64,000 bases of DNA from Pseudomonas putida (GTDB lineage Bacteria; Pseudomonadota; Gammaproteobacteria; Pseudomonadales; Pseudomonadaceae), in the NCBI RefSeq assembly GCF_002025705.1, contig NZ_CP018846.1, positions 2,099,501 through 2,163,500 of the forward strand. Direction: 5' to 3'. Numbering within the stretch: the stretch's first letter is position 1; the number at the start of each line of letters is the position of its first letter. Both the position numbers and the translations under genes were made by a program. Positions 31,098 through 32,476 of this stretch are shown in pieces. Under the pieces are notes generated by a model, which saw only the letters and a list, made by a program, of their open reading frames with translations, ran no database searches and had not been told where the DNA came from.

Positions 31098-31125
31098 TTC
31101 CCGGGCTTGCCCGCGAAAGCGCCAA
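31098..31125 (-). repeat. Single REP after operon 1
   Basis: CGGGCTTGCCCGCGAAAGCG, unpaired. Confidence 0.7.
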
Positions 31126-31229
31126 TGCAGGCAGTAAAAAATCAGATTTAACCGCTTTCTTGTAGTCCATTTCCCAAAGATACTCTTCCCCCGCATTTTC
31201 CGTTGCGGTTGCTCTGGTAGGGCTCTAGT

Positions 31230-31428
31230 CTCGGCCTGTCGCTGCTCATCAGCGACACGGCTTTGACAGGTCGTAACGGTATTATGCATGTGGCTCGCCT
31301 GATATGGCGGCTGTACGTGGGGCACGCTTGCGTGCGCCGGAACTTGCATAGTCCGCCGGTCTGTCAACCCATGTACAGCTGCCACCCGAGTGTTTGACAG
31401 CATTCAGGGGGAAGCGCCCTCAAAAGGA
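31230..31428 (+). ncRNA. Structured leader RNA of the DUF6124 gene
   Basis: About 200 nt with interlocking helices. These are: hairpin TGTCGCTG/CAGCGACA (31237-31244/31250-31257); TTGACAG (31263-31269) able to pair with CTGTCAA (31361-31367); TATGCA/TGCATA (31283-31288/31345-31350); hairpin GCACGC-TT-GCGTGC (31322-31335); and a 14-of-16 pairing of 31306-31321 with 31368-31383 that makes a pseudoknot. A second TTGACAG (31394-31400), 20 nt before the ribosome site, competes for CTGTCAA. I recall similar leaders before DUF6124/DUF3077 genes in pseudomonads but cannot verify this. Ends are estimated. Confidence 0.6.
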
Positions 31429-31435
31429 CCATGCG

Positions 31436-31678
31436 ATGTTGAAGATTGTCCCCGATCCACCCCACGATATTCATTCCCTAGAAGACACCCTCATCCAGGC
31501 CACGGACTACGCCCTGTGCGCGGCGACTGTGGTGCATCAGGCATTGCTGCTGCAGCCCAAGTCGCCGGCGTCGATTCTGATGATGGCCTCGATGCATGAG
31601 ATGGAGGCGCTGCGGGCTTTGCTCGAATCCGCGTTAATCCAGGTACAGATGCCCAGTGGGCCTCGGACGTTGCACTGA
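31436..31678 (+). CDS. DUF6124 family small protein
   Basis: 80 residues from ATG 31436; AAAAGGA lies 8 bp upstream. The sequence starts MLKIVPDPPHDIHSLEDTLIQATDYALC and is mostly two helices, LCAATVVHQALLLQP and MASMHEMEALRALLESALIQVQM, with no membrane segment. It matches my recollection of the Pseudomonas family DUF6124, whose function is not known. The long structured leader upstream and the DUF3077 remnant downstream are typical companions. It may be involved in regulation, but nothing in the sequence proves it. Confidence 0.7.
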   Translation: MLKIVPDPPHDIHSLEDTLIQATDYALCAATVVHQALLLQPKSPASILMMASMHEMEALRALLESALIQVQMPSGPRTLH

Positions 31679-31707
31679 GGCTTGAGTGATGTGCTGGCCG
31701 GGCTGGC

Positions 31708-31778
31708 CAATCGCGGATAAATCCGCTCCTACAGGTTGTGTGGTTCTTGTAGGAGCGGATTTATCCGCGATGAGGCCC
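31708..31778. repeat. REP doublet, GCGGATAAATCCGC class
   Basis: Facing pair between the DUF6124 gene and the DUF3077 remnant. Confidence 0.85.
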
Positions 31779-31814
31779 GCCCAGGCATTCGAGAATTCTC
31801 AGGGAGATTGACCA

Positions 31815-31922
31815 ATGACCACAGACGACACCCAATGCACCGTCGGCAAGACAACGTTCTTCCAAGGTGAAAATCAGGCCCACCCGCTGTTTCGCATCGA
31901 ACCCGGCATTCCTTGCCTGTGA
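31815..31922 (+). pseudogene. DUF3077 family gene, truncated by a palindromic repeat
   Basis: GGAG lies 10 bp before ATG 31815. The 35-codon frame reads TVGKTTFFQG and HPLFRIEPGIPC, which I recognise as the N-terminal half of a DUF3077 protein (normally about 80-100 residues). It then meets TGA inside CCTGTGAGATCGAGC, the outer end of the long palindromic repeat at 31917. I cannot find the missing C-terminal half elsewhere in the window, so this looks like disruption with loss. Confidence 0.65.
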
Positions 31923-32018
31923 GATCGAGCGCCGCCCGCGCGGCGCATCGCGGATGAATCCGCTCCTTGTATGTTGCAGCGTGCCGAACCTGTCAGGTCC
32001 TGGTTGTCAGCCTTTGGT
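31917..32018 (+). repeat. Half copy of the long palindromic (REPIN-like) element
   Basis: The left arm of the family (GAGATCGAGCGCCGCCCGCG, REP core GCGGATGAATCCGC, then GTTGCAGCGTGCCGAACCTG) continues to GGTTGTCAGCC and stops 3 bp before the RAYT stop codon. The right arm is absent. It truncates the DUF3077 gene. Confidence 0.75.
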
Positions 32019-32020
32019 GA

Positions 32021-32476
32021 TCAGATCCAGATTGCATCCCAATGTGGATAGTCCCCGATTCTGCTTACCAGGCCTGCTCTGATGGGGTTGGCAACAATGT
32101 ATCTTGCGGCCTTTACCACATCATCTTCCCTGCGTAAGGCCCGGTCGTGATATCCGTCTTGCCAGACCGGGGCCGCAATGGTTCCTGCCTTACGCAATTC
32201 GTGGCTCGACCTTGCTTTGAAACGGCGCATCAGTGTGCTCAGGGTTATCTCTTTGAGTTCGATCAGCCAATGTATATGGTCAGGCATTACCACCCATGCC
32301 AGTGAGTGACAGCTGTTCTCCTGATCAGCAAGACGCAGGTGCCTGATTACGGTTCGAGCGCGTAGCAAATCCAGGAACAGGGGGTGGCGGTTCTGCGTGA
32401 CGGTTGTGAGCAGGTAGAGCCTGCCGGGCTCTGAACATCTGCCTCGGCGTAGCAGGCAACCTTTTTGTGGGGGCAT
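32021..32476 (-). CDS. REP-associated tyrosine transposase (RAYT, Y1 HUH family)
   Basis: A 151-residue Y1_Tnp protein. The HUH motif is VVMPDHIHWLIEL (HIH at 67-69). The nucleophile is probably Tyr109 in GYHDRALR; Tyr126 in AARYIVANPIRAGL is the alternative. RAYTs are domesticated relatives of IS200/IS605 transposases that bind and cleave REP hairpins and are thought to spread REPINs. It has a half palindromic repeat touching its stop and a full copy 105 bp upstream of its start, consistent with that role. Confidence 0.88.
   Translation of the reverse strand: MPPQKGCLLRRGRCSEPGRLYLLTTVTQNRHPLFLDLLRARTVIRHLRLADQENSCHSLAWVVMPDHIHWLIELKEITLSTLMRRFKARSSHELRKAGTIAAPVWQDGYHDRALRREDDVVKAARYIVANPIRAGLVSRIGDYPHWDAIWI

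Follow-up and report, generated by a model that had tools for sequence, protein, structure and literature searches.

Our analysis of the leader RNA at positions 31,230 to 31,428 of a 64,000-nt stretch of the Pseudomonas putida genome (contig NZ_CP018846.1; the whole stretch is referred to as the window) indicates that this locus is very probably a chromosomal C4 antisense RNA module of the type known from immI of phage P1, in which a small RNA cut from the leader would pair with target sites in its own flanks and block translation of the small open reading frame (ORF) that follows. Two Rfam families match the leader above their gathering cut-offs, namely the C4 antisense RNA (RF01695; 71.1 bits against a cut-off of 45, over model positions 1-87 of 87) and, upstream of it, c4-a1b1, entitled 'a1, b1 targets of C4 antisense RNA' (RF03163; 51.8 bits against a cut-off of 46.7). 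These were the only matches at gathering level in the whole 64-kb window, and a riboswitch family was not among them. The first-pass annotation, which had seen the sequence letters only, knew of no named RNA class for the leader; both families contradict this, and an unnamed RNA class or a riboswitch is rejected on the basis of the same matches. Membership in the C4 family, the anatomy of the module, the covariation between C4 and its flanks and a partial insulation between paralogous modules are direct observations, whose details are given below.

Anatomy of the leader

The module consists of two target sites upstream (a1, b1) and two downstream (a2, b2) of a compact RNA that carries their complements, a' in a linker and b' in a loop (Table 1). 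The core of this RNA (31306-31386) has a predicted folding energy of -47.0 kcal/mol, compared to a mean of -30.4 kcal/mol for shuffled sequences (z -5.4; none of 200 shuffles was as good), and the linker a' is unpaired inside C4 in this fold. The positions of the three complementary 7-mers, the helix with 14 of 16 positions paired, which we find to contain 14 Watson-Crick pairs with the remaining two being G-U, and the three local hairpins had all been read correctly in the first-pass annotation. However, a second pairing had been missed, that of loop b' with b1 and b2, and it is the pairing of b' with b2 that reaches the site of translation initiation, as b2 overlaps both the Shine-Dalgarno sequence (AAGGA, 31424-31428) and position 31436, the A of the start codon. 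In the window module a' pairs over seven of seven positions with both a1 and a2, b' forms an 8-nt run with b1, and the sole mismatch between b' and b2 places A 31350 opposite C 31430. Dinucleotide shuffling of 31230-31428 produced some 7-mer with two copies of its complement in 1230 of 20000 trials; the 7-mer triple by itself is weak evidence, and the argument depends on homology and covariation.

The predicted 5' end of the mature RNA has GG at 31306-31307, in agreement with the GG start of P1 C4. While a stricter consensus promoter scan of 31100-31800 found no promoter, 67 of the 73 modules described below had the pattern TTGnnn-N16..18-TAnnnT at a distance of 40-200 nt upstream of C4, compared to a fraction of 0.070 of mononucleotide shuffles. 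The candidate promoter of the window, if real, would place the transcription start upstream of a1, which argues against a start downstream of 31361.

Table 1. Features of the C4 module and of the genes behind it, in window coordinates.
Feature	Position	Strand	Basis
Candidate promoter TTGCGG-N17-TAGTCT	31203-31231	+	Read from sequence letters
c4-a1b1 target element (RF03163), including leader hairpin 31238-31256	31225-31277	+	Rfam, fold
a1 site TTGACAG, complement of a'	31263-31269	+	Letters equal to P1 a1
b1 site ATTATGCA	31281-31288	+	8 pairs (one G-U) with loop b'
C4 antisense RNA (RF01695)	31300-31389	+	Rfam, fold z -5.4
Mature C4 RNA, predicted	31306-31386	+	Likeness to annotated P1 ends
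Closing stem, 5' arm (partner 31368-31383)	31306-31321	+	Fold
C4 hairpin 1	31322-31335	+	Fold
C4 hairpin 2; b' is loop 31341-31355	31336-31360	+	Rfam, fold
a', single-stranded linker CTGTCAA	31361-31367	+	Fold; same letters in P1
Closing stem, 3' arm	31368-31383	+	Fold
a2 site TTGACAG	31394-31400	+	Same letters in P1
b2 site GGACCATGCGA	31426-31436	+	10 of 11 positions pair with b'; duplex -14.9 kcal/mol
Small ORF, 80 aa (MLKIVPDPP...)	31436-31678	+	Position of P1 icd
DUF3077 gene remnant, 35 aa	31815-31922	+	Partial Pfam match under cut-off

Covariation of C4 with its fold and its targets

The C4 fold was examined in an alignment of 36 C4 sequences, 14 from the window genome (the window included) and 22 from the 30 loci of a second genome, G100. 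Standard pairs occupied 96.8% of the 934 cells, and 17 of the 26 pairs had changed on both sides, values that none of 500 shuffles reached in either respect. When the pairing partners were slid by one to three columns, standard pairs fell to 34.5-45.6%, a comparison in which the unshifted pairing is favoured because the structure was taken from the fold of the window itself.

The match between C4 and its targets was compared in 73 modules, comprising 14 from the window genome, 30 of the 35 from G100 and 29 best matches from other genomes. A Watson-Crick run of at least 7 joined a' to a2 in 69 of the 73 modules, to a1 in 72 and to both in 68. Likewise, exact complements of the 7-mer at a fixed position of C4 were present in both flanks in 66 of the 73 modules, and these involved 23 different 7-mers, compared to 0 of 4851 for other 7-mers of the same C4s. 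Among the b' loops there were 14 distinct ones in the 14 modules of the window genome, 29 in the 30 of G100 and 19 in the 29 from other genomes.

When the targets were swapped between modules, none of 10000 permutations was as good as the own targets for a'-a2, a'-a1 or b'-b2 in any of the three sets, although these permutation statistics leave shared ancestry in. For b'-b1 the corresponding numbers were 1, 0 and 0 of 10000, with a smaller gap between own and swapped targets (mean runs of 7.5 versus 6.3, 7.8 versus 6.5 and 7.4 versus 5.9). For the downstream targets, an energy-based version of the own-versus-swapped comparison gave 0 of 10000 in each of the two genomes; for the upstream targets it gave 1 and 0 of 10000. 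A similar trend was found in viral contigs with a P1-type a', where the b'-b2 run averaged 9.6 with own and 6.3 with swapped targets (55 distinct loops; 0 of 10000). In one pair of modules (L023 and L024) b1, b' and b2 had changed together within otherwise alike leaders. Compensatory changes in homologues, which had been named earlier as the check on the proposed helices, are thus present in the permutations of own targets, in the a' matches of the 73 modules and in the 17 two-sided pairs of the fold.

Copies of the module across genomes

The window genome contains 16 C4 matches, of which 15 exceed the cut-off. Two of the matches (L018 and L019) lie in the contig ends 1-19192 and 6117833-6137024, which are 99.1-99.9% identical to each other over about 19 kb and most simply suggest an unclosed circular assembly; with the ends duplicated one C4 is counted twice, leaving 14 distinct matches over the cut-off and one weak match. 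In G100 there are 35 matches, 34 of them over the cut-off. Across a sample of the genus, a C4 match was found in 138 of 149 genomes and exceeded the cut-off in 137 of 149, with a median of 13 per genome and 33 genomes at the maximum of 27 scored candidates. In the sample from the rest of the class, C4 occurred in 17 of 273 genomes with at most 6 each, up to 15 candidates having been scored per genome, and 14 control genomes gave no C4 match. Within the samples examined, the expansion of C4 is therefore marked in Pseudomonas. Two families of intergenic repeats described in P. fluorescens, R178 and R200, were considered as possible counterparts of the modules on the basis of literature excerpts.

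In another genome (G007, locus L111) a homologous ABC-transporter gene is followed by 26 bp and then by another gene, with no module between them, but the genes behind differ from those of the window, which makes this site of little weight. The tmRNA gene, a locus where mobile elements often insert, is no more than 200 bp away from one paralogous module of the window genome (L025; L002 1558-1723 and 1910-2301, minus strand). On a 19-kb P. putida plasmid (L118, NZ_CP043577.1, 1168-1978) the whole module has a relative, which matches 87% of the query at 71.5% and is accompanied by a DUF3077 gene.

Insulation between paralogous modules

We compared own and foreign C4-target pairs at fixed thresholds. 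When runs of 6 or more with a2 and of 7 or more with b2 were required, own pairs passed in 13 of 14 cases in the window genome, compared to 8 of 182 foreign pairs, and in 25 of 30 cases in G100, compared to 11 of 870. When the b2 run was raised to at least 8, the numbers fell to 11 of 14 own versus 3 of 182 foreign pairs in the window genome and to 19 of 30 versus 5 of 870 in G100. The insulation is thus strong but incomplete, with failures among the own pairs as well.

The window module is the one own pair of its genome that fails at the b2 threshold of 7. Because of the mismatch 31350/31430 its longest b'-b2 run is only 6, the shortest among the 14 modules. The same b' loop is shared by eight Pseudomonas contigs. 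In six of them the leader is intact and readable, and all six show CTATGC in place of the CCATGC of the window; of the remaining two, one is cut at the locus edge and the other is a damaged copy. To judge from these letters, the gene in the window may be less tightly repressed than those of its orthologues.

Proposed mode of action and comparison with known systems

By analogy with P1, from which we infer transcription, cutting, action in trans and repression at the window locus, a single transcript would run, probably from about 25 nt upstream of a1, through a1-b1, C4, a2-b2 and the small ORF. C4, with a length of about 81 nt, would be cut from this transcript, a step that in P1 is carried out at the 5' end by RNase P, and its exposed linker a' and loop b' would pair with a2 and b2 of the mRNA, closing the Shine-Dalgarno sequence and the start of the 80-aa ORF and blocking its translation. 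The upstream a1 and b1 would provide a second, competing site for C4. According to excerpts from the literature, P1 C4 is a processed, trans-acting antisense RNA (PMC5320573, PMC8198154, PMC8546580).

The P1 record AF234172 is annotated in the order promoters P2c4 and P1c4, a1, b1, c4 (77 nt), a2, b2, icd and ant, and the P1 sequence has TTGACAG before C4, CTGTCAA within it and TTGACAG after it, letter-identical to a1, a' and a2 of the window. The window module resembles the c4-icd-ant operon of immI in the order of its parts, the C4 fold, the letters of a1, a' and a2, the position of b2 over the ribosome site and the small ORF that comes next. In contrast to P1 immI, it is chromosomal and lies between ABC-transporter genes, its small ORF is not Icd, no ant follows (a DUF3077 remnant stands there instead), its b' code differs and many copies occur in one genome. 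The proteins encoded behind C4 in viral contigs also include AntA and, in P1-like modules, icd, which was recognized by its letters and leader as Pfam gives nothing for it.

Neither the C4 class itself nor the occurrence of C4-like RNAs in many copies in Acinetobacter is new to the literature. Both motifs of the window module, the c4 antisense RNA and c4-a1b1, were described by Weinberg et al. (2010, PMC2864571), who list them for Proteobacteria and gamma-Proteobacteria, along with phages; the main-text excerpts are silent on copy number in Pseudomonas, on insulation and on the genes controlled. Similar to our modules, the C4-like small RNAs of Acinetobacter baumannii are numerous within a genome and vary in their recognition letters: 21 members of Group 1 with varied target-recognition letters are expressed and apparently cut from longer transcripts, as excerpts of that study state (PMC5320573). 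However, the same excerpts leave the targets of these RNAs open, whereas the C4s of Pseudomonas have a target in their own flanks and a small gene behind. Among the open-access main-text excerpts covered by our literature searches, none described sets of C4s in Pseudomonas that are self-targeted and largely insulated.

Small proteins encoded behind C4

The 80-aa protein of the window had no Pfam match at E of 0.01 or less, and no match in NCBIfam or PHROGs when scanned with one extra residue. It was modelled as a two-helix hairpin (pLDDT 81.9), for which a Foldseek search against the PDB gave no match at E of 0.001 or less, the best E being 1.0. The gene had been called DUF6124 in the first-pass annotation, a name that applies to positional relatives only. 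Among 13 proteins in the same position in the window genome Pfam recognized 2 DUF3077 and 1 DUF6124, and among 13 in G100 it recognized 7 DUF6124, 2 Bro-N and 1 DUF3077; a literature search under the name DUF6124 found nothing. PADLOC returned no match for any of the 13 scanned proteins of the window genome, the 80-aa protein included. Most of the proteins in this position in the window genome start with xK.VPDPP and many of those in G100 with xK.TPNPP, including a Bro-N protein (L103). Thus a short VPDPP/TPNPP N-terminal peptide is common to otherwise unlike proteins behind C4, one of them a Bro-N, antirepressor-like protein. The closest paralogue of the window protein (L022) is 95% identical, but its leader is different and the DNA match starts at the start codon, as if leaders had been exchanged as cassettes.

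Alternative readings and significance

The linker a' can pair with either a1 or a2, and all parts of the module lie on one strand within 200 nt, as would be expected if the linker flipped between the two sites within one nascent transcript in response to a ligand, a protein or the speed of transcription, with no RNA being released. We consider such a cis switch highly improbable, since the conserved unit is C4 itself, with a family model of its own, the P1 member is processed and acts in trans according to excerpts of the literature cited above, the linker is unpaired inside the predicted C4 fold as an antisense RNA needs, and no family match proposes a ligand-binding core. The earlier riboswitch-like interpretation holds for the structured and regulatory nature of the leader, for the mutual exclusion between pairing of a' with a1 and with a2, and for control near the ribosome site; its implication of a ligand-sensing cis riboswitch is not compatible with the Rfam assignment to C4 and with the processed, trans-acting P1 relative. 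The chromosomal C4s could also serve as guard RNAs in superinfection immunity, silencing incoming phages or plasmids with matching a2 and b2, in which case the adjacent gene would matter less. A P1-type a' lies beside a2 in at least 120 viral stretches, some of which have VPDPP, DUF6124, DUF3077, Bro-N or AntA proteins downstream, and a guard role was proposed as one option for Acinetobacter in the excerpts of that study (PMC5320573). However, the b' of the window forms a run of at least 9 with 0 of 55 distinct viral targets, and a search of 50,697 phage records with the locus gave a single match, which covers 20% of the query. The loops of L020 and L025 match 14 and 19 of the 55 viral targets, respectively, mostly through T-rich letters with G-U pairs, and these matches are presumably noise. 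As each C4 fits its own flank, control of the own gene is the simpler reading, and a guard function appears unlikely.

The antisense assignment would also be compatible with, and be extended by, a type I toxin-antitoxin-like arrangement, with a harmful small ORF and C4 acting as the RNA antitoxin against it. The ORF stands in place of icd, the inhibitor of cell division of P1; a genome holds many largely insulated pairs, copies that a harmful ORF with an RNA antitoxin would favour; and one relative resides on the 19-kb plasmid together with a DUF3077 gene. Nevertheless, this extension seems doubtful, considering that the modelled helical hairpin has no significant structural relative and that the window protein gave no match in PHROGs and the scanned proteins none in PADLOC. 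More broadly, we tentatively raise the possibility that Pseudomonas chromosomes carry a dozen to more than 30 largely insulated modules derived from one phage immunity cassette, each silencing mainly its own small gene (VPDPP/DUF6124, DUF3077 or Bro-N), with b' diversifying against cross-silencing as in competing exclusion or addiction elements; such modules would amount to a naturally occurring collection of orthogonal RNA regulators, selfish or defensive in their role. With the C4 antisense reading a false 'unknown riboswitch' is removed, and a regulator of phage lysogeny appears multiplied across the genus with up to dozens of codes per genome. Since the likely target of each C4 is named by its own flank sequence, target assignments are directly testable. 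If the modules work as proposed, they would be ready-made orthogonal translation regulators and would point to silenced families of small proteins. The window module is an addition to a known kind of RNA that is multiplied in the genus, and the self-targeted, insulated C4 sets and their small proteins are what seems worth following.

Sequences distal to the small ORF

The ORF at 31815 matches positions 1-25 of the 77 positions of DUF3077 with 15.3 bits, under the cut-off of 21. It ends at 35 aa near 31917, at the beginning of a sequence that recurs many times in the genome and that we take to be REP-like (region 31815-31999), whereas five paralogous modules encode 87-88 aa in this place. The remnant is probably no working part of the module in the window but a leftover of the second gene that some paralogous modules possess. 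Between the small ORF and the remnant lies a second repeat (31700-31787), an inverted one that matches its own reverse strand. Beside the repeats an ORF on the minus strand (32021-32476) encodes an IS200-like Y1 transposase (Pfam E 4.2e-11), and genes of this type are known partners of REP sequences.
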